A program made the translations under genes and the position numbers. A stretch of 64,000 nucleotides of DNA from an uncultured Hoeflea sp. GTDB lineage: Bacteria; Pseudomonadota; Alphaproteobacteria; Rhizobiales; Rhizobiaceae. This document shows, in pieces, positions 20,733 to 58,352 of the stretch. The stretch lies in contig NZ_CANMVK010000005.1 in assembly GCF_947501405.1 (NCBI RefSeq), positions 124,001-188,000 on the forward strand, read 5' to 3'. Below the pieces are notes generated by a model. The model did no database searches. It was not told where the DNA came from and saw nothing but the letters and a program-made list of their open reading frames with translations. Each line of letters starts with the position of its first letter. Within the stretch, counting starts at the first letter, position 1.

Positions 20733-21578
20733 TCAACGGCCCGGCAGATTGTTCCAGTGAATATCCTCGAGCGCCTGCATGCGCGCCCGGGCGCTGGGTG
20801 AGTTGGCCCTGGACACGCGGTCGATCAGCGCTTCGGCGAGCGCCATCATGGTAACGCTTGAATCCCAGGTGCGGTCGGCGTCGATAACGCAGGGCAGTAC
20901 CACGCGCGCCGACCGGGCGATCGGCGAAAGCCAGGGGTCGGTGATCAGCACGATACGGGCCTTGCGTTCAACCATCAACTCGCCGAGCCGAACCAGATCG
21001 GACTGGTAGCGGCGAATGTCGAACAAGACCGCGACATCGCCAGGGCGAATGTCGAGCAACTGGTCGCGCCAGGTTGAACTCTGGCCGGCAAAGTGCCTGA
21101 CGCCTGGCCTGATGATCCTCAAATGTGCCGCCATATAGGCGGCGATGGCGTCGGTGAAGCGCCCGCCCAGCACATAACAGGCGGATTTGCTGTCTGACAG
21201 CAAATCGCAGGCCGCCTCGAACTCGCTTTCGGGCACGGCCTTCAGCGTTGCGTCGAGATTGGCCTTCAGGCTCGCGAAACTTGCCTTCAGCGCCGGATTG
21301 TCCGCCGACGGGGCGGAACTGCGAGCGCGCTCGAGCGGCGACATCAACTGCGCCTGCACATCGGAGCGCAAGGCACGCTGGAAGGCCGGGTAGGAATCAA
21401 ACCCCAGCCGCGCGGCGAAGCGCAGCACGGTGGGTGCGCTGGTGCCGGCCAGCGCCGCCAGTTCAGCAATCGTCGACAAGCCGATGCTCGGGTAATTGGC
21501 GAGGAAGGCGTGAGCAACTTTTTTTTCGGCGCTGGGCAGTCCGCCGAGCGCTGCCTGCACCTGTTCCCGAATGGCCAT
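20733..21578 (-). CDS. MurR/RpiR family transcriptional regulator of the TRAP/glutamylation cluster
   Basis: This is a 281-residue protein if started at the ATG at 21578, which has GGAG upstream; the open frame extends to 21614. The N-terminal HTH_6 domain (about 1-77) contains 'ANYPSIGLSTIAELAALAG' and 'TSAPTVLRFAARLGF'. A SIS domain follows (about 120-250, 'VLGGRFTDAIAAYMAAHL', 'GDVAVLFDIRRYQSDLV'). SIS domains usually bind phosphosugars, but those of catabolic RpiR proteins in rhizobia often act with non-sugar pathways. It is divergent from the seven-gene cluster starting at 21706, so it is the likely local regulator. Inverted repeats in the shared gap are candidate operators. Confidence 0.88.
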   Translation of the reverse strand: MAIREQVQAALGGLPSAEKKVAHAFLANYPSIGLSTIAELAALAGTSAPTVLRFAARLGFDSYPAFQRALRSDVQAQLMSPLERARSSAPSADNPALKASFASLKANLDATLKAVPESEFEAACDLLSDSKSACYVLGGRFTDAIAAYMAAHLRIIRPGVRHFAGQSSTWRDQLLDIRPGDVAVLFDIRRYQSDLVRLGELMVERKARIVLITDPWLSPIARSARVVLPCVIDADRTWDSSVTMMALAEALIDRVSRANSPSARARMQALEDIHWNNLPGR

Positions 21579-21606
21579 GATGGGTCTGCTCCGATGCATC
21601 TGATGA

Positions 21607-21645
21607 TGTAACAAAAATTACAGGATTGACATCGATTGCGCAATC
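21607..21645. promoter_or_regulatory. Candidate operators between rpiR-type gene and amine cluster
   Basis: Two inverted repeats lie in the 127-bp divergent gap: TGTAA-N6-TTACA (21607-21622) and the perfect 12-bp palindrome GATTGCGCAATC (21634-21645). The latter sits inside a wider AGGATTG/CAATCCT repeat. A TTGACA (21626-21631) with ATCAAT 17 bases on gives a plausible promoter for the plus-strand operon, so a bound regulator would overlap it. Confidence 0.5.
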
Positions 21646-21705
21646 CTAATCAATGTTACTCATTGCCATGGCGGATGCCGTGATCTCCCGGGAGCGCAAA
21701 CCAAA

Positions 21706-22500
21706 GTGCAGGACGTGGCCCTGATCGACAGTTCGGAAGCACCGGCTTTTACCGTCGCCCGCGCGGACGGCGAAAGCGATGTCGTGCTGATCTGTGAGCA
21801 TGCCTCCAATGCCATGCCGCGGGCGCTCGGTACGCTGGGGCTGGATCTGGCGGCGATGGAAAGCCACATCGCCTGGGATATTGGCGCGGCCGCGGTGGCC
21901 AGGCGGCTTTCGGTTTCGCTCGATGCGGCGCTGATCATGCAGCGGTTTTCGCGGCTGGTCTATGATTGCAATCGCCCGCCGGAGGCCGATGACGCCTATC
22001 CGGAACAAAGCGAAATCTATCAGGTTCCGGGCAATGCGGGCCTGAGCGCCAGGGACAAGGCACTGCGTGCGGAAGCGCTGTATTATCCGTTTCATGACGC
22101 AATCGATGCGCTGATCGATGGACGGCTTGCTGCAGGCCGGGATGTGGTGCTGGTTACCATTCATTCCTTCACACCTGTCTATTTCGGAAAACAGCGTGAT
22201 TGTGCGCTCGGTATTCTCCATGATGCGGATTCGCGCTTCGCCGATGCGATGCTTGAGTCGGCGCGGGAAGCTGGTTTCGAGGGCGTGCGCCGCAACGACC
22301 CCTACGGTCCGCAAGATGGTGTCACCCATACGCTCAGGAAACACGGCTTGACCCGGAAAATCGCCAACGTCATGCTGGAAATCCGCAATGATCTGATTGC
22401 CGATGAACGCGGTCAGGCCGAGTGGGCGGACCGGATCGCGGGGCTGCTGCGTCAGGCGCTTGATCGCCGGCAGCTGGCAGGAGGGCTCCGGCATGGCTGA
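21706..22500 (+). CDS. N-formylglutamate amidohydrolase-like hydrolase (COG3931 type)
   Basis: The 264-residue enzyme begins at GTG 21706, after GGGAG. The motif 'VVLICEHASNAMP' near residue 25 replaces the classical PHSG motif and marks the COG3931 subgroup. 'HIAWDIGAAAVARRLS' and 'RLVYDCNRPP' are the other conserved blocks, and 'LVTIHSFTPVY' supplies a further His. The classical enzyme hydrolyses N-formylglutamate at the end of histidine degradation, but no hut genes are here. Instead it leads an operon with a TRAP transporter, a glutamine-synthetase-like ligase and two dehydrogenases. I infer it cleaves a gamma-glutamyl or related amide formed in that route. Its substrate is unproven. Confidence 0.82.
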   Translation: MQDVALIDSSEAPAFTVARADGESDVVLICEHASNAMPRALGTLGLDLAAMESHIAWDIGAAAVARRLSVSLDAALIMQRFSRLVYDCNRPPEADDAYPEQSEIYQVPGNAGLSARDKALRAEALYYPFHDAIDALIDGRLAAGRDVVLVTIHSFTPVYFGKQRDCALGILHDADSRFADAMLESAREAGFEGVRRNDPYGPQDGVTHTLRKHGLTRKIANVMLEIRNDLIADERGQAEWADRIAGLLRQALDRRQLAGGLRHG

Positions 22501-22545
22501 TCGCCCGACACTGCCTTGTGGTTTGCATGCCCGGAGGTCGCCGGC

Positions 22546-23073
22546 ATGAGATGCGCCGAAGCCTATATCCGCATCATCGATGCGTTCAACCGGCGGGTGG
22601 GCCGGTTCGCAATGTATCTGATCTTTGCCCTGATGGGTGTGTTGTTGTGGTCGTCGGTGACCAAGTTTGCCGGCGCGCCGGCGCTTTGGACGCTCGAACT
22701 CGCGCAGTTCGTGATGGTCGCCTATTATCTGCTGGGCGGCGCCTATTCGATGCAGCTTGGCGATCATGTGCGCATGGATCTGGTCTATTCGATGTGGTCG
22801 CCGCGGCGAAAGGCGGCGATCGACGCAGTCACCGTCCTGTTCTTGCTGTTTTATCTGTGTGTGCTGTTTTATGGCGGCATCTCGAGCACCACGTATGCGA
22901 TCGAATATGGCGAGCGGGCGCATTCGGTGTGGCGGCCCTATATGTGGCCGGTCAAGCTGATCGGCGCTATCGGCATCTTCCTGATGCTGCTGCAGGCCCT
23001 GGCCGAGTTCTTCCGCGACATCCTTTATCTGCGCGGCGTAAGCGTCAATCATCATAGCGAGGCGGGCCTTTGA
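22546..23073 (+). CDS. TRAP transporter small permease (DctQ type)
   Basis: The 175-residue protein has four membrane helices (about 19-40, 48-68, 88-108 and 130-150), the standard DctQ layout. I chose the ATG at 22546, preceded by GGAGG; the open frame begins earlier at a GTG. 'LWTLELAQFVMVAYYLLGGAYSM' (key 'ELAQFVMVAYYLLGGAY') matches the second-helix signature. It partners the large permease that follows, with the stop and start overlapping (TTGA), and the binding protein at 24449. The set is a Na+-driven secondary uptake system. Confidence 0.9.
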   Translation: MRCAEAYIRIIDAFNRRVGRFAMYLIFALMGVLLWSSVTKFAGAPALWTLELAQFVMVAYYLLGGAYSMQLGDHVRMDLVYSMWSPRRKAAIDAVTVLFLLFYLCVLFYGGISSTTYAIEYGERAHSVWRPYMWPVKLIGAIGIFLMLLQALAEFFRDILYLRGVSVNHHSEAGL

Positions 23074-24404
23074 GCTACGAACTAATCGCCCTGTTCATGT
23101 TCGCCTCGATGATGGCGCTGCTGTTGACCGGCCAACGCGTCTTCGGCGTCATCGGCGCGGTGGCGGTGATTGCGGCGCTGCCATTGTGGGGCACGGGCGG
23201 GGTCGAGATCGCCTTCGCACAATCGATCAAACTGATGAAATGGTATCCGCTGCTCACGTTGCCGATGTTCATTTTCATGGGCTACATGCTGTCGGAGAGC
23301 CGCATTGCCGACGATCTTTACAGGATGTTCCATGTCTGGTTCGGCCCGGTTCCGGGCGGGCTGGCGATCGGCACCATTTTGCTGATGGTGGTGATTTCAG
23401 CGATGAACGGGTTGTCGGTGGCGGGCATGGCGATCGGCGCGACAATCGCGCTGCCGGAGCTGCTCCGGCGCGGCTATGACAAGCTGATGATTACCGGGGT
23501 GGTCCAGGGCGGCTCCAGCCTGGGAATCCTGATCCCGCCATCGGTGGTGCTGGTGCTTTACGGCATGATCGCCCGCCAGCCGGTAAGCCAGCTCTGGCTG
23601 GCTGGTGTGTTTCCCGGCCTGATGATGGCCGCGCTGTTCATCCTCTACATCGCCGTGCGCTGCAAGTTGCAGCCGCATCTGGGCCCGCCGCTTCCCAAGG
23701 CGGAGCGTGACGCGATCAGCTGGAGCGACCGCATCAAGCTGCTTCGGGCCGGCATTCTGCCCTTCATGATCTTTTTCCTGATGAACGGGCTGTTCCTGAT
23801 GGGCGTGACCAGCCTGGTGGAAAGCTCGGCTGTGGGCGCGCTGGCCTCGATGGCCGCGGCGTTGATCAAGGGACGGCTCTCCGCCGACGTGATGGAGAAC
23901 GTGCTGCGCAAGACGCTGGGCATTTCCTGCATGTTCATGTGGATCATTCTGGCGGCGCTGTGTTTCGGCGCGGTGTTTGACGGGCTCGGCGCGGTGCGGG
24001 CGATCGAGAATTTCTTCCTCGGACAGTTGGGTCTCGAGCCCTGGCACGTGCTTATCCTGATGCAGTTGAGCTTTCTGCTGATGGGTACGTTTCTCGACGA
24101 TACGGCCATGCTGGTGATTGTCGCGCCGCTCTATGTGCCGCTGGTCAAGGTGCTCGGTTTCGATCTGGTCTGGTACGGGATCCTCTACACGATCACCTGC
24201 CAGATCGCTTATATGACGCCGCCTTTCGGCTACAATCTGTTCCTGATGCGCGCCATGGCGCCGCCGGAAATCAAGCTTCGCCATATCTACCTGTCTGTCA
24301 TTCCCTTCGTCGCGGTCATGCTGCTCACTCTGGTGATCGTGATGATGTATCCGCAACTGGCATTGTGGCTGCCGGAACAGTTCCGCGGCAAACTCCAGGG
24401 CTGA
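23070..24404 (+). CDS. TRAP transporter large permease (DctM type)
   Basis: The 444-residue protein has about twelve membrane helices and forms the ion-coupled channel of the TRAP system. Landmarks are 'LLTLPMFIFMGYMLSES' near 60-75, 'GGSSLGILIPPSVVLVLYG' around 147-165, and 'LGTFLDDTAMLVIVAPLYVP'-type repeat in the second half (sequence 'MGTFLDDTAMLV'). The start codon is TTG, overlapping the DctQ stop by four bases, so translation is probably coupled. The Ser/Asp residues of 'DDTAM' differ from typical dicarboxylate DctM, but specificity depends on the binding protein. Confidence 0.92.
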   Translation: MSYELIALFMFASMMALLLTGQRVFGVIGAVAVIAALPLWGTGGVEIAFAQSIKLMKWYPLLTLPMFIFMGYMLSESRIADDLYRMFHVWFGPVPGGLAIGTILLMVVISAMNGLSVAGMAIGATIALPELLRRGYDKLMITGVVQGGSSLGILIPPSVVLVLYGMIARQPVSQLWLAGVFPGLMMAALFILYIAVRCKLQPHLGPPLPKAERDAISWSDRIKLLRAGILPFMIFFLMNGLFLMGVTSLVESSAVGALASMAAALIKGRLSADVMENVLRKTLGISCMFMWIILAALCFGAVFDGLGAVRAIENFFLGQLGLEPWHVLILMQLSFLLMGTFLDDTAMLVIVAPLYVPLVKVLGFDLVWYGILYTITCQIAYMTPPFGYNLFLMRAMAPPEIKLRHIYLSVIPFVAVMLLTLVIVMMYPQLALWLPEQFRGKLQG

Positions 24405-24448
24405 TGTGAGCAAGGCCCCTTGAGGGCAAACCAATAAAGGAGAACAGC

Positions 24449-25492
24449 ATGATCAAGAGGCGTCAATTTCTCACCAAGGCCGGCGTAGCCGGCGCGGCCG
24501 CCAGCACTGCTCTCGCGGCGCCGCCGGTGCTCGCCCAGGAGCCGATTCGCTGGCGCATGCAGACCTATGCCGGTGCGACGCTCGGCCAGTTCGTGACCCA
24601 GCCCTTCGTCGACGCCTTCAACAAGGCGGCCAATGGCGAAATGGTGATCGAGCTGTTCTTCGCCGACCAGATCGTACCGACGGGTGAATTGTTCCGCGCC
24701 ATGCAGGCCGGCACCATCGACGCGGTGCATTCGGATGATGATTCCATGGCCTCGCCGGTTGAGGTCGGCCTGTTCGGCGGATACTTCCCCTTCGCCACCC
24801 GCTCGATCCTGGATGTGCCGGTGTTGTTCGAGCAATATGGCCTCGCCGACATCTGGCGCGAAGCCTACAACGGAACCGGCGTCGTCTGGCTTTCGGCGGC
24901 CGGTCAGGATCCGTGCAACTTCAACACCAAGAAGGAAATCACCAGCATCGAGGACCTGTCAGGCCTCAAGCTCTACACTTTCCCGACCGCGGGCCGGTTC
25001 CTTACCCAGTTTGGCGTGGTGCCGGTGTCCATCCCTTACGAAGACGCGGAAGTTGCTGTGCAGACCGGCGAACTCGACGGCATGGCCTGGTCGGGTATTA
25101 CCGAGGACTACACTGTCGGCTGGGCAGATGTGACGGATTACTTCCTGACCAACAACATCTCCGGCGCCTGGATCGGTTCCTGGTTCGCCAATGAGGAGAA
25201 GTGGAACCAGCTGCCCGATCATCTCAAGCAGCTCTACATGTCGTGCATGGAGGCCGGTCACACCTACCGCAACCAGTGGTACTGGGGCGGCGAAGCCAAG
25301 CTGCGCGCCACCGGCGACAAGCTCAAGCTGCGCAATGTGCCTGCGGCGGAGTGGAAACAGGTGGAAGACGCCGCCAAGGTATTCTGGGACGAGGTTGCCG
25401 CGGAAAGCGAAACCAAGGCCAAGGTCATCTCGATCTTCAAGGAATACAACAGCGTCATCAACAGCGCCGGCTTCCCCTACGGCGAAAGCTGA
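24449..25492 (+). CDS. TRAP transporter substrate-binding protein, Tat-exported (DctP family)
   Basis: The 347-residue periplasmic protein starts with a twin-arginine signal ('KRRQFLTKAGVAGAAAS', cleavage after VLAQ or ALA near 30). The body shows DctP features: 'RWRMQTYAG', 'LFRAMQAGTIDAVHSDD', 'YFPFATRSILDVPVLFEQYGL', 'DLSGLKLYTFPTAGRFL' and 'GELDGMAWSG'. These blocks are close to the TakP/alpha-keto-acid branch. Tat export is common in this branch. AAAGGAG precedes the ATG. The ligand is not resolved; the cluster context suggests an amine or amino-alcohol, which would be unusual for this branch. A small hairpin (25513-25528) follows the stop. Confidence 0.9.
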   Translation: MIKRRQFLTKAGVAGAAASTALAAPPVLAQEPIRWRMQTYAGATLGQFVTQPFVDAFNKAANGEMVIELFFADQIVPTGELFRAMQAGTIDAVHSDDDSMASPVEVGLFGGYFPFATRSILDVPVLFEQYGLADIWREAYNGTGVVWLSAAGQDPCNFNTKKEITSIEDLSGLKLYTFPTAGRFLTQFGVVPVSIPYEDAEVAVQTGELDGMAWSGITEDYTVGWADVTDYFLTNNISGAWIGSWFANEEKWNQLPDHLKQLYMSCMEAGHTYRNQWYWGGEAKLRATGDKLKLRNVPAAEWKQVEDAAKVFWDEVAAESETKAKVISIFKEYNSVINSAGFPYGES

Positions 25493-25512
25493 TCCGGCCT
25501 GCGCATCAAACT

Positions 25513-25528
25513 CAAGCCTCCCGGCTTG
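25513..25528 (+). other. Short hairpin after the TRAP binding-protein gene
   Basis: CAAGCC-TCCC-GGCTTG is a 6-bp perfect stem, with no T-run. Such hairpins often stabilise the binding-protein mRNA within TRAP or ABC operons; whether this one does is inference. Confidence 0.35.
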
Positions 25529-25672
25529 TCCGGGGGGCGCTTTGCCGCTACAGCGCGCTCGCTTGGCCTTTTGCCAAACGTCCGCTGACAATTGTGGACC
25601 ACGTGCTTGCGTCTTTCCGGTTCGAACAGGCCGGGCCGGCGTGGGCTTTTCGATGATCGGGATCAAACGACC

Positions 25673-27037
25673 ATGGCTCAAAACCTTACCTTCGAAGCGC
25701 TCAAATCCGCCGCCGGTTCCGGCGACATCGACACCGTTCTGGTCTGCGCGGTGGACATGCAGGGACGGTTGATGGGCAAGCGTTTCCATGTCCAGAACTT
25801 TATCGAGTCAAGCCATGAGGAAACCCATTGCTGCAACTATCTTCTGGCCACGGATTTGGAAATGGCAACGCCGGACGGCTACGCCACAACCAGTTGGCAG
25901 GCGGGCTATGGCGACTATGTGATGAAGCCGGATCTTTCCACCCTGCGCCTGGTTCCCTGGCTCGAGGGGACGGCGATGGTGCTGTGCGATCTGCTTGATC
26001 ACCATACGCACAAGCCGGTGCCGCAATCGCCGCGACAGCTTCTCAAGACCCAGATCGCGCGGCTTGAGGCGCTCGGCTATCAGGCAATGATGGCGACCGA
26101 GCTGGAATTCTTCCTGTTCGAACAGAGTTTCCGCGATCTGTCGCGGTCGGGCTATCGCGAGCTGACGCCGATCTCGGCCTATAATGAGGATTACCACATC
26201 CTGCAGACCACAAAGGAAGAGGCGATCATGCGCCCGGTGCGCAATCATCTCTATGCCGCGGGCATCCCGGTCGAAAACTCCAAGGGCGAGGCGGAAACCG
26301 GACAGGAAGAACTCAACATCCGCTATTCGGAGGCGCTGTCATGCGCCGACCACCACACCATCGCCAAGCACGCGGTCAAGGAGATCGCCTGGGCCAATGG
26401 CCGGTCGGCGACGTTCCTGCCGAAATGGAACGCCAACAAGGTCGGATCATCGTCGCATGTGCACATGTCGTTATGGCAGGGCAAGACGGCCGCATTCCAC
26501 GATCCCGATCAGGCCCACGGCATGTCGGCGCTGATGCGCCATTTCATGGCCGGGCTGATCGAATACGCGCCGGACTATACCTGGTTTCTGGCGCCCTATA
26601 TCAACAGCTACAAGCGGTTCATGAAGGGCACCTTTGCACCGACACGGACGGTGTGGTCGGTCGACAACCGCACCGCCGGCTTCCGGCTTTGCGGCGAGGG
26701 CACCAAGGCCGTGCGCGTGGAATGCCGAATCGGCGGATCAGACATGAACCCCTATCTGGCGCAGGCCGCGCTGCTTGCCGCCGGGATCAAGGGTATCGAG
26801 GACAAGCTTGAACTGGCCGCGCCGACTGCGGGCGATATTTATGAAAACGCCGAGGCCCGGCATATCCCTTCCACCTTGCGTGATGCCACCGAGACGTTGC
26901 GCGGCTCAAAGATGCTGCGTGAAGCGATGGGTGATGACGTGGTCGACCATTATGTGCGCTGCGCCGAGTGGGAGCAGGAAGAATTCGACAAGGCGGTGAC
27001 CGATTGGGAAATCGCGCGCGGGTTTGAGCGGGCATGA
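25673..27037 (+). CDS. Glutamine-synthetase-like gamma-glutamyl ligase
   Basis: The 454-residue protein has the GS fold: a short N-terminal beta-grasp ('VCAVDMQGRLMGKRF') and a catalytic barrel. Metal/ATP ligands are visible in 'ATELEFFLFE' (Glu143, Glu145), 'GEAETGQEELNIRY' and 'SSSHVHMSLW'. 'APTRTVWSVDNRTAGFR' and 'VECRIGGSDMNPYLAQAALLAAG' (cut to the key part) follow. The adenylylation Tyr segment of GlnA is absent and the N-terminus lacks the GlnA ring-contact pattern. It groups with PuuA/IpuC/GlnA4-type enzymes that join glutamate to amines. Between a TRAP importer and two dehydrogenases, I infer it glutamylates an imported amino-alcohol. It is 180 bp after dctP and 118 bp before the next gene. 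Confidence 0.85.
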   Translation: MAQNLTFEALKSAAGSGDIDTVLVCAVDMQGRLMGKRFHVQNFIESSHEETHCCNYLLATDLEMATPDGYATTSWQAGYGDYVMKPDLSTLRLVPWLEGTAMVLCDLLDHHTHKPVPQSPRQLLKTQIARLEALGYQAMMATELEFFLFEQSFRDLSRSGYRELTPISAYNEDYHILQTTKEEAIMRPVRNHLYAAGIPVENSKGEAETGQEELNIRYSEALSCADHHTIAKHAVKEIAWANGRSATFLPKWNANKVGSSSHVHMSLWQGKTAAFHDPDQAHGMSALMRHFMAGLIEYAPDYTWFLAPYINSYKRFMKGTFAPTRTVWSVDNRTAGFRLCGEGTKAVRVECRIGGSDMNPYLAQAALLAAGIKGIEDKLELAAPTAGDIYENAEARHIPSTLRDATETLRGSKMLREAMGDDVVDHYVRCAEWEQEEFDKAVTDWEIARGFERA

Positions 27038-27155
27038 CAAGATCCGCCTTGGACGCCGGTGCGCCGGAGATTGCGGCGTGCGCGGACCAGGCGGCAAGCA
27101 TTATCGCACACGCGCTTTCGCAACAAAGCGGAGCGCTTATCGGGATTCTTCAAGC

Positions 27156-28532
27156 ATGACGAAAACAGTCAAACTCATCTCGCCGATCGACGGATCGGTC
27201 TATCTGGAACGCGAATGCCTGTCCCGCGAGGCAGCATTCGACGCGGCCTCCCGCGCCCGCGCGGCGCAGGCCGCCTGGGCGGCGCGACCACTTCGGGAGC
27301 GCATCGATCTGGTCATGCGGGCCAACAAGATCATCGGCGAACAAACCGATCGGATGGCCGAGGAGCTGGCCCACCAGATGGGCCGGCCGATCCGCTATGG
27401 CGGAGAATATGGCGGATTTGATGAGCGCGTGAGCTACATGGCGGACATTGCCGAGAGCGCGCTGGCACCGCTGGAAGTCGAGGACAGCGACGCTTTCAAA
27501 CGGCAGATCAAGCGGGTGCCGCATGGCGTGGTTCTGGTGGTCGCACCCTGGAACTACCCCTACATGACGGCAATCAACACCGTCGCGCCAGCGCTGATCG
27601 CCGGCAACACGGTGATCCTCAAACATGCGGCGCAAACCCTGAAAGTGGGTGAGCATCTTGCGGAAGCCTTCGCGGCCGCAGGCATTCCTGAAGATGTGTT
27701 CCAGAATGTCGTGCTTGATCACGATGCGACCTCGGATCTGATCGGCAAGCGGGCGGTCGACTTTGTCAATTTCACCGGTTCGGTTGGCGGCGGTCAGGCG
27801 ATGGAGCGGGCGGCCGCGGGCACTTTCATTCCGGTGTCGACCGAGTTGGGCGGCAAGGATCCGGGCTATGTACGCGCCGATGCCGATCTCGAGCGGGCGG
27901 TCGATACGCTGATGGATGGCGCGATGTTCAATTCCGGACAGTGCTGCTGCGGCATCGAGCGGATCTATGTGCATGAAAGCCTCTATGACGGCTTTGTCGA
28001 AAAGGCGGTTGCCTGGGTCAAGGCGATGAAGCTCGGCAATCCGCTCGATCCCGAAACCACGATGGGTCCGATGGCCAATGTGCGCTTCGCCAGGGAAGTT
28101 CGCGCCCAGATCGCCGAAGCTCTGGAAGGCGGGGCGGTGGCGCATATCCCGACCTCACCGGCAGATGATGGCGGGGCCTATATGACGCCGCAGGTTTTGA
28201 CCAATGTCAGCCACGACATGCGGGTTATGCGTGACGAGAGCTTCGGACCGGTGGTCGGCATCATGCCGGTCAAGGATGATGAGGAAGCGATCACACTGAT
28301 GAATGACTGTCAGTTTGGCCTGACCGCCTCGATCTGGACCGCGGATGCCGCGGCAGCGGAAGCCATCGGCGACCGTATTGAAACCGGCACGGTGTTCATG
28401 AACCGCTGCGATTATCTCGACCCGGCGCTGTGCTGGACCGGCTGCAAGGACACCGGCCGGGGCGCGGGTTTGTCGGTGCTGGGCTTCCAGGCGCTGACCC
28501 GTCCGAAATCCTACCATCTCAAGAAAGCATGA
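27156..28532 (+). CDS. NAD(P)-dependent aldehyde dehydrogenase
   Basis: The 458-residue enzyme is of the ALDH superfamily. Visible are 'PWNYPYMTAINTVAPALIAGN' (key 'PWNYP'), the cofactor lysine region 'TVILKHAAQT' (Lys156), 'FTGSVGGG', the general base Glu230 in 'TELGGKDP', and the nucleophile Cys264 in 'GQCCCG'. The stretch of three cysteines is unusual. I chose the ATG at 27156, which gives the family N-terminus; a longer frame overlaps the ligase gene. It ends with an ATGA overlap into the iron-type alcohol dehydrogenase, so the two oxidation steps are translationally coupled, as expected when one supplies the other's aldehyde. Confidence 0.9.
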   Translation: MTKTVKLISPIDGSVYLERECLSREAAFDAASRARAAQAAWAARPLRERIDLVMRANKIIGEQTDRMAEELAHQMGRPIRYGGEYGGFDERVSYMADIAESALAPLEVEDSDAFKRQIKRVPHGVVLVVAPWNYPYMTAINTVAPALIAGNTVILKHAAQTLKVGEHLAEAFAAAGIPEDVFQNVVLDHDATSDLIGKRAVDFVNFTGSVGGGQAMERAAAGTFIPVSTELGGKDPGYVRADADLERAVDTLMDGAMFNSGQCCCGIERIYVHESLYDGFVEKAVAWVKAMKLGNPLDPETTMGPMANVRFAREVRAQIAEALEGGAVAHIPTSPADDGGAYMTPQVLTNVSHDMRVMRDESFGPVVGIMPVKDDEEAITLMNDCQFGLTASIWTADAAAAEAIGDRIETGTVFMNRCDYLDPALCWTGCKDTGRGAGLSVLGFQALTRPKSYHLKKA

Positions 28533-29683
28533 CGCCGATGACACATGTTGCAAACTGGTCCTATCCCACCGCCGTCCGGTTTGGCGCAGGCCGGATTTCG
28601 GAACTCGCCGACGCCTGTAAGGCCGCCGGCATGTCGCGGCCGCTGCTGGTCACCGACCGGGGCCTGGCGTCGCTGCCGATCACTCTGCAGGCGCTTGATC
28701 TGCTCGAAGCGGCGGGGCTCGGCCGGGCGATTTTCGCGGATGTCGATCCGAATCCCAATGAGCAGAACCTCGAGGCGGGTGTCGCGGCGTTCAGGGCGGG
28801 TGGCCATGACGGTGTGATTGCCTTTGGCGGCGGCTCGGGCCTTGATCTGGGCAAACTGGTGGCGTTTCAGGCCGGCCAGACTCGTCCGGTCTGGGATTTC
28901 GAGGACATCGGCGACTGGTGGACTCGCGCCAACGCCGATGCGATCGCACCGATCATCGCCGTTCCGACCACGGCCGGTACCGGCTCTGAAGTGGGGCGCG
29001 CCGGGGTGCTCACCAATTCGGCCACCCATGTCAAAAAGATCATCTTCCACCCGAAACTGCTGCCGTCGGTGACGATTTGCGATCCGGAGCTGACGGTCGG
29101 CATGCCGAACATGATCACGGTCGGCACCGGCATGGACGCCTTCGCCCATTGCCTGGAAGCCTATTCCTCGCCGTTCTATCATCCGATGAGCCAGGGCATC
29201 GCGCTTGAAGGCATGCGGCTGGTCAAGGAGAACCTGCCGCTGGTGGTCGCCGACGGCGGCAACATCGCGGCCCGCGCCGAAATGATGAGTGCCGCCGCAA
29301 TGGGTGCGGTGGCCTTCCAGAAAGGGCTCGGCGCCATCCACGCGCTGTCGCATCCGGTGGGTGCGGTCTACAACACCCACCACGGCATGACCAATGCGGT
29401 GGTGATGCCGCCGGTGCTCAAGATGAACCGCCCGGTGATCGAAGACCGAATCTCGCGCGCCGCGGACTATATGGGCATTTCCGGAGGGTTTGACGGGTTT
29501 TACGATTTCGTGATCGGCCTGCGCGCCGATCTCGGCGTTCCTGACAAACTGGCCGAACTTGGCGTGGGCCGTGACCGCATGGATGAGATGGTTGCGATGG
29601 CGCTCGAAGACCCAAGTGCTGGGGGCAATCCGGTCAAGATGACAGCTCAGAACACCAAGGCGCTGTTCGAGGCCTGTCTCTGA
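28529..29683 (+). CDS. Iron-containing (group III) alcohol dehydrogenase
   Basis: The 384-residue product has the N-terminal Rossmann part with 'AFGGGSGLDLGK' (99-109) and 'PTTAGTGSEVGRAGV' (146-160). The metal-binding C-terminal part has ligands inferred by spacing with FucO: Asp203, His207, His271 and His285 in 'GMDAFAHCLEAY' and 'HALSHPVGAVYNTHHGM'. The start ATG overlaps the ALDH stop. It oxidises an alcohol with NAD, and the coupled ALDH would take the aldehyde on. In this cluster the likely alcohol is the gamma-glutamylated amino-alcohol, which is inference. Confidence 0.92.
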   Translation: MTPMTHVANWSYPTAVRFGAGRISELADACKAAGMSRPLLVTDRGLASLPITLQALDLLEAAGLGRAIFADVDPNPNEQNLEAGVAAFRAGGHDGVIAFGGGSGLDLGKLVAFQAGQTRPVWDFEDIGDWWTRANADAIAPIIAVPTTAGTGSEVGRAGVLTNSATHVKKIIFHPKLLPSVTICDPELTVGMPNMITVGTGMDAFAHCLEAYSSPFYHPMSQGIALEGMRLVKENLPLVVADGGNIAARAEMMSAAAMGAVAFQKGLGAIHALSHPVGAVYNTHHGMTNAVVMPPVLKMNRPVIEDRISRAADYMGISGGFDGFYDFVIGLRADLGVPDKLAELGVGRDRMDEMVAMALEDPSAGGNPVKMTAQNTKALFEACL

Positions 29684-29722
29684 CCGCCCGCGTTGGGCGC
29701 TGATTTGCGGGGAACCATCAAA

Positions 29723-29758
29723 CCGCCGGACAATTCCGGCCCGGCGGCGTGCTTTTTT
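29723..29758 (+). terminator. Intrinsic terminator of the TRAP/glutamylation operon
   Basis: CCGCCGG (29723-29729) pairs with CCGGCGG (29741-29747), and a run of six T follows at 29753-29758. It lies 40 bases past the last gene. Confidence 0.75.
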
Positions 29759-29785
29759 ACGTCTGATCTGGCGTGTTTTGCGAAT

Positions 29786-53537: not shown

Positions 53538-53575
53538 CGCGCCTCCTTTTGTTATCAAAAACAGGAATAGGCGCG
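53538..53575 (-). promoter_or_regulatory. Hairpin masking the thiB ribosome binding site
   Basis: On the minus strand CGCGCCT pairs with AGGCGCG, and CCT further in pairs with AGG. The AAGGAGG of thiB is thus inside the stem. It is the likely expression platform of the TPP riboswitch (translational control). Confidence 0.65.
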
Positions 53576-53590
53576 TAACCAGCGTCTAAT

Positions 53591-53676
53591 CCCTCCGCCG
53601 GTACAAACCGGATCAGGTTCTTCGGGTTGGCGTTAAGCCTCTCAGCCCGGCCTGACGCCGGGCACCCCGTTAGAGC
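53591..53676 (-). promoter_or_regulatory. TPP riboswitch (THI element)
   Basis: Reading the minus strand gives the conserved order GGGGTGCCC, GGCTGAGAGG, GAACCTGATCCGG and TACCGGCGGAGGGA. These are the diagnostic parts of the thiamine pyrophosphate aptamer. It precedes thiBPQ, so TPP would shut down thiamine import. Confidence 0.95.
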
Positions 53677-53743
53677 AAGTCCAGACATAGAATTTCTCAC
53701 CGGCGCTGGCAAGTGCGGCGAAAGCTGCTATTGGCTGTGCGCG

Positions 53744-58231: not shown

Positions 58232-58275
58232 TGCAAGCAGCGTTGACCGCCGCGTCTACGCTGCTTATCCTGAAA

Positions 58276-58326
58276 CCGTGGTGATTTGGCCGGCCGGCTT
58301 GCAGCCACGTTAAACAACTCGCTAAA
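58276..58326 (+). promoter_or_regulatory. SAM-II riboswitch
   Basis: CGTGG and CCACG form the first stem, and the sequence GTGATTTGGCCGGCCGGCTT with TTAAACAACTCGCTAAA gives the pseudoknot. It fits the metA (SAM-II) aptamer of alphaproteobacteria and precedes metA. Confidence 0.93.
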
Positions 58327-58352
58327 GGGCCGACGGGAGACCTCCCACCGGA

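Follow-up and report, generated by a model that had tools for sequence, protein, structure and literature searches.

A probable Eto-type ethanolamine operon in an uncultured Hoeflea species, with signs of in-place aldehyde dehydrogenase replacement and a predicted RpiR operator

Here, we describe a gene cluster in a 64,000-nucleotide stretch of DNA, termed the window, from an uncultured Hoeflea sp. (contig NZ_CANMVK010000005.1, positions 124,001 to 188,000). The cluster comprises a gene for an RpiR-type regulator and, opposite it, seven genes for a hydrolase, a TRAP transporter, a glutamine synthetase (GS)-like ligase, an aldehyde dehydrogenase (ALDH) and an iron-type alcohol dehydrogenase (ADH), and is in all probability an Eto-type operon for the utilization of ethanolamine by gamma-glutamylation. 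The operon is real, well conserved and of a kind already known. Its function had been guessed correctly in an earlier reading of this DNA (the original prediction), and the mechanism outlined there, namely TRAP import, gamma-glutamylation, two oxidations and release by an amidohydrolase, is well supported by homology. Ethanolamine would enter through the TRAP transporter and, with glutamate and ATP, be converted by the ligase to gamma-glutamylethanolamide. The ADH would oxidize the alcohol to an aldehyde, the ALDH would convert this aldehyde to gamma-glutamylglycine, and the hydrolase, a PF05013 member, would yield glycine and glutamate. Because glutamate is released along with glycine in the last step, the glutamate tag would be recycled. 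Control of the operon would probably be exerted by the divergent RpiR protein, via a predicted TGTA-N8-TACA site at 21607-21622. Gene content, gene order and the family of the binding protein can be read directly from the DNA; the enzyme steps are proposed by analogy with published orthologous operons.

The nature of the substrate is suggested by the TRAP binding protein (DctP, EtoX-type; 24449-25492, + strand). Its closest solved structure is 4UAB (E 2.6e-143; runner-up, 8e-17), and this match places it in the Csal_0678/EtoX family. 4UAB is Chromohalobacter Csal_0678 with ethanolamine, bound via Glu220 and aromatic side chains (PMC12410723). Since the nearest solved relative is an ethanolamine complex, ethanolamine is the likely substrate of the operon. 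Csal_0678 is described as having no equivalent of Arg-147, the residue that ties TRAP proteins to carboxylates (PMC4646407). The corresponding residue is Phe in 4UAB and Tyr176 in the window protein, and this Tyr is identical in all 81 aligned rows (the window plus 80 loci), which are not independent, having been selected by similarity to the query. Glu219 of the window protein, conserved in the same 81 of 81 rows, is the probable, if unproven, counterpart of 4UAB Glu220, given an offset of 3 between the number 220 and the index in the chain sequence; it is the Glu closest to 220 in the printed stretch, and the next Glu is 14 away.

PF00120, PF00465, PF00171 and PF05013 are all present together in the operon, as seen with Pfam. 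The putative ethanolamine gamma-glutamyl ligase (GS-like; PF00120, Gln-synt_C) is encoded at 25670-27037 (+), within a longest open reading frame (ORF) that begins at 25592. Its closest solved structure is 5DM3 (E 3.6e-222), presumably the neighboring Chromohalobacter protein. The ligase scores under the cut-offs of all four NCBIfam ligase models that it matches, and it is the only close copy in its own genome, the next standing at 31% identity. The ALDH (PF00171, Aldedh; 27156-28532, +; longest ORF from 27024) is a candidate gamma-glutamyl-acetaldehyde-amide dehydrogenase, and the iron-type ADH (PF00465 and PF25137; 28529-29683, +; start taken from the translation) a candidate gamma-glutamylethanolamide dehydrogenase. 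The predicted gamma-glutamylglycine amidohydrolase (GGAH-type, PF05013; 21706-22500, +; Pfam E 1.7e-45) is closest among solved structures to 2ODF Atu2144 (E 8e-83). The hydrolase of a Rhizobium operon copy also matches this structure (E 3e-93), and our guess is that Atu2144 is the Agrobacterium hydrolase of such an operon. Glycine decarboxylase matches are present in the genome, which would provide an outlet for glycine.

In a survey of genomes for the same cluster, as proposed in the original prediction, the full set stood at most of the loci kept, and the ligase or hydrolase was missing from some. The scan of named genomes gave at least 594 stretches, at least 582 of them encoding a relative, and the best 80 were kept as homologous loci. 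All eight genes occur in the same order and on the same strands in 57 of these 80, over a span of 8.6-9.9 kb, which argues that the gene set did not come together by chance. Seven of the other 23 loci miss genes where the contig ends (L012, L021, L033, L040, L059, L069 and L076); the ALDH match of L033 is a 29% paralogue located elsewhere. L031 and L039 are without the ALDH, L074 is without a match to the iron-type ADH, and L065 is without one to RpiR. The binding protein is found at E <= 1e-40 in 36 of 289 sampled genomes of the class. Among 72,556 plasmid records, the ligase-ALDH-ADH DNA is matched in 92 (over at least 80% in 22 of them) and the binding protein, at E <= 1e-60, in 17; ten of the 15 ligase-ALDH-ADH matches listed are also among these 17, and the remaining five include S. 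meliloti pSymB and Aminobacter pMET3.

Besides the two limits on the binding-residue comparison given above, several observations weigh against assigning the operon to ethanolamine utilization. Five loci (L017, L035, L042, L051 and L056), and likewise L081 on a short contig, carry TRAP genes with no enzyme genes nearby. L024 and L029 have RpiR, hydrolase and TRAP genes and none for the enzymes, and L025, L058, L078 and L079 have TRAP and enzyme genes without hydrolase or RpiR, about 3-7 kb being covered upstream of TRAP. Three further PF05013 genes lie elsewhere in the Hoeflea genome, for a total of four matches with the operon hydrolase. The ammonium-binding Asp of GS points neither way: among 72 ligase rows (from the window and 71 loci; 72 loci have a match, but L021, cut short, is omitted, and a weak paralogue from L042 is included), 38 have D at this position, and only one of three paralogues from the window's own genome could be aligned there. 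For the Eto operon of Phaeobacter sp. MED193, the published evidence consists of binding and proteomics, with no eto mutants reported in the accessible text (Westermann et al. 2023, PMC10132767). The TRAP position is occupied in S. meliloti pSymB by an amino acid permease, which matched no ethanolamine-specific NCBIfam model; given this, the permease is uninformative on the substrate. Inspected for another route to which TRAP might be tied, the flanks of the loci that lack enzymes or hydrolase (20 ORFs from 9 of 14 loci) gave no match to an ethanolamine-specific family, a weak result, with longest-frame ORF picking wrong in places (the TRAP genes of L017 and L079 were overridden). The flank of L058 carries a zinc ADH.

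Aminobacter pMET3 has the regulator, hydrolase and enzyme genes without a transporter, beside annotated beta-hydroxyaspartate-cycle genes. With a permease in pSymB and no transporter in pMET3, the importer seems to be exchangeable, the enzymes staying together. The position of the pMET3 set adjoining beta-hydroxyaspartate-cycle genes also fits an outflow of glycine or glyoxylate. In that record (L133, 11014-16345), bhcR and bhcABCD are annotated next to RpiR-hydrolase-ligase-ALDH-ADH, and the plasmid is typed as conjugative. In Marinovum pMaD4 (L130, 10037-13954), a spermidine/putrescine-type ABC transporter is annotated right after a full eight-gene set.

Could the same pathway serve another, or a broader, amino-alcohol? 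2-Aminopropanol (alaninol), 3-aminopropanol and serinol would give alanine, beta-alanine and serine-like products, and longer chains could suit the enzymes. Furthermore, 4XF5, which presumably holds 2-amino-1-propanol, has the same chain sequence as 4UAB. We nonetheless regard this as improbable: Pfam finds no family that handles alanine, beta-alanine or serine among the eight genes, and the orthologous binding protein, EtoX, has a dissociation constant (Kd) for ethanolamine of 7.9 μM (PMC10132767). Of the substrates put forward in the original prediction, ethanolamine, with glycine as product, is backed by homology; 3-aminopropanol, isopropanolamine and serinol find no support here and may be side substrates.

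A Puu-like polyamine route, with putrescine glutamylated, oxidized and freed as gamma-aminobutyric acid, must also be weighed, given that the ligase resembles gamma-glutamylputrescine synthetase. The score of 217.5 bits, however, is far under that model's cut-off of 650, the ADH in the operon points to a hydroxyl substrate, and the binding protein belongs with the ethanolamine binders (4UAB). Puu is defined by an FAD amine oxidase (PuuB-type) and a glutamine amidotransferase (PuuD-type), and neither an FAD amine oxidase nor a class I glutamine amidotransferase was matched by Pfam among the eight genes; a route of this kind is very unlikely. Hardly credible at all is a histidine/formylglutamate or plain nitrogen-assimilation cluster, made up of a true deformylase, a true glutamine synthetase and a TRAP keto-acid importer. 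The generic Pfam names PF05013 and PF00120 would accommodate it, but the hydrolase reaches 21.8 bits against an equivalog cut-off of 278.75 for the HutG deformylase model, the ligase scores too low for any of the GS models that it matches, and the TRAP protein is without the carboxylate Arg. On family cut-offs, Puu-like, HutG-like and plain glutamine synthetase identities are rejected. So is the Eut ammonia-lyase route: in this 99.99% complete assembly, a search for EutB gave no match, and the E. coli control was positive.

Within the presumed ethanolamine operon, one gene stands apart. Between the window and six Hoeflea/Pseudohoeflea loci, identity is 89-92% for the binding protein and 82-90% for the ligase and iron-type ADH. 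For the ALDH, it is 64-68%, and the best match, at 84%, is from Marivita lacus. Identity is likewise low for the hydrolase (59-71%), yet its best matches remain Hoeflea. In a quick tree of 36 rows (35 loci being chosen by us from the 80, and the Hoeflea/Pseudohoeflea group defined after the identities were known), the window ALDH clusters with four Marivita-type rows (support 99), and constraining it to join the six Hoeflea/Pseudohoeflea rows is rejected (approximately unbiased test, p-AU 2.3e-68). In the corresponding binding-protein tree, the window lies next to four Hoeflea rows with an unstarred support of 88, and the starred set that contains it (support 95) has nine rows beside or including it, six of them Hoeflea/Pseudohoeflea. 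The simplest reading of these sequence comparisons is that a Marivita-type copy took the place of the ALDH gene while its neighbors were kept. Separately, in two Nitratireductor loci (L007 and L046) the ligase is 64-65% identical to that of the window and the binding protein 81-89%, which hints at a ligase swap.

The RpiR/MurR-type regulator (HTH_6 and SIS domains in Pfam; 20733-21614, - strand) is the likely regulator of the operon, and an opposite-strand RpiR match is present in 65 of the 80 homologous loci. Its start, judged from the translation, is perhaps the ATG at 21599 and not the TTG at 21614. Between RpiR and hydrolase lies an inverted repeat TGTA-N8-TACA, TGTAACAAAAATTACA (21607-21622, unstranded), the sole match to TGTARYNNNNRYTACA in the window, which we predict to be the RpiR operator and consider a likely one. 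The motif, picked after being spotted in the window, occurs exactly in 24 of 66 RpiR/hydrolase intergenic regions (shuffled mean 0.05), and allowing one mismatch raises the number to 40 (shuffled mean 2.15); these regions, which include the window and short parts of both flanking genes, are related to each other and hence are not independent trials. With other spacers, from 3 to 13, there were 0 exact TGTA/TACA matches in the 66 regions. The motif is missing from 26 of the 66, among them that of the close relative L005, and a second site is found 44 bp off in eight. The window's own genome holds one more site within two mismatches of the window form. A comparable 15-bp site is described for the RpiR-family regulator RccR (PMC5489143). 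Searches of the open literature for RpiR together with ethanolamine brought up no operator work, and neither the ALDH replacement nor the TGTA-N8-TACA operator was met in the literature compared. We think there is a good chance that single parts of the operon are swapped in place, as with the Marivita-type (Roseobacteraceae) ALDH, and that the 16-bp TGTA-N8-TACA site, sometimes doubled 44 bp apart, is the operator of an RpiR subfamily that would sense ethanolamine or a gamma-glutamyl intermediate.

The original prediction treated the seven same-strand genes as one unit, bounded by the divergent RpiR gene and a terminator. ORFs and Pfam families agree, all eight genes being present where they had been placed, in the order RpiR, hydrolase, Q, M, P, ligase, ALDH, ADH. 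Q is the TRAP small permease (DctQ, EtoV-type, PF04290; 22516-23073, +) and M the large permease (DctM, EtoW-type, PF06808; 23070-24404, +). The ATGA overlap reported for the last two genes is seen in the translations at 28529-28532, where the ALDH stop overlaps the ADH start. The terminator said to bound the unit is less secure. A possible hairpin with a T-run is there (29723-29758, +), and it is no more than plausible as a terminator because the fold of 29715-29765 is modest relative to shuffled sequences (-16.8 kcal/mol, z -1.95; 8 of 200 shuffles equally good), the best fold forms a second hairpin whose loop contains the T-run, and a terminator after the ADH gene is absent from the consensus scan output. 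Near the gap between RpiR and hydrolase, no promoter was picked up in a scan for sigma-70 sites. Elsewhere in the window, there are a TPP riboswitch at 53573-53679 (-; 68.1 bits versus a gathering score of 54.3) and a SAM-alpha riboswitch at 58268-58345 (+; 80.4 bits versus 36).

In the sea, ethanolamine derived from phospholipid headgroups serves as a source of nitrogen. A further copy of the operon aids annotation. In four annotated plasmid records, the ligase and hydrolase are named just glutamine synthetase and N-formylglutamate amidohydrolase. With the predicted operator, the RpiR regulator could be tested directly.

Several known systems bear comparison with the window operon. The Eut ammonia-lyase pathway shares the substrate and differs in chemistry; its EutB was not found in this genome. 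E. coli Puu has in common with the window a GS-like ligase, gamma-glutamyl intermediates and an ALDH, but acts on polyamines, and an amine oxidase and the PuuD hydrolase replace the iron-type ADH and PF05013 enzyme. The ethanolamine gamma-glutamylation pathway of C. salexigens, with Csal_0678, was reportedly described by Vetting and colleagues in 2015 and by Gerlt in 2016. C. salexigens resembles the window in its four enzyme families (PF00120, PF00465, PF00171 and PF05013, as tabulated in PMC9397018) and in having an orthologous binding protein (4UAB). The GlnA4 route of Streptomyces coelicolor (PMC6529630) likewise begins with gamma-glutamylethanolamide, and the same release step, by an enzyme of the formylglutamate-amidohydrolase family, is proposed for it; the Chromohalobacter pathway is termed there an in silico prediction. 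Unlike the window, this route has the regulator etuRI and another putative transporter, with no TRAP system seen in the accessible text, and the figure legend gives orf2 as a short-chain dehydrogenase and orf5 as a glutamine amidotransferase.

In Phaeobacter sp. MED193, consecutive tags (MED193_10021-10056) cover RpiR, GGAH, EtoV, EtoW, EtoX, an ethanolamine gamma-glutamylase, ALDH and ADH (PMC10132767). Five proteins of this set are up on phosphoethanolamine, and EtoX is also up without phosphate. An earlier study is cited there for this pathway in both C. salexigens and A. tumefaciens; in ocean data, about 5 to 10% of bacteria are reported to have etoX. It had originally been thought that no characterized example had this gene set, and that the TRAP importer and release by a COG3931-type hydrolase were new. 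These claims of novelty fail, since the MED193 paper describes these eight kinds of gene in this order and reports a measurement of ethanolamine binding; the importer and the hydrolase family are both already published, and PMC9397018 has the four enzyme families for C. salexigens. The MED193 Eto operon and the window are alike in their eight gene kinds, in tag order, in an ethanolamine-binding TRAP protein and in having RpiR at one end. The MED193 order is taken from locus tags and the legend. What sets the window apart is its ALDH, which appears not to share the lineage of the ALDH of its nearest relatives.

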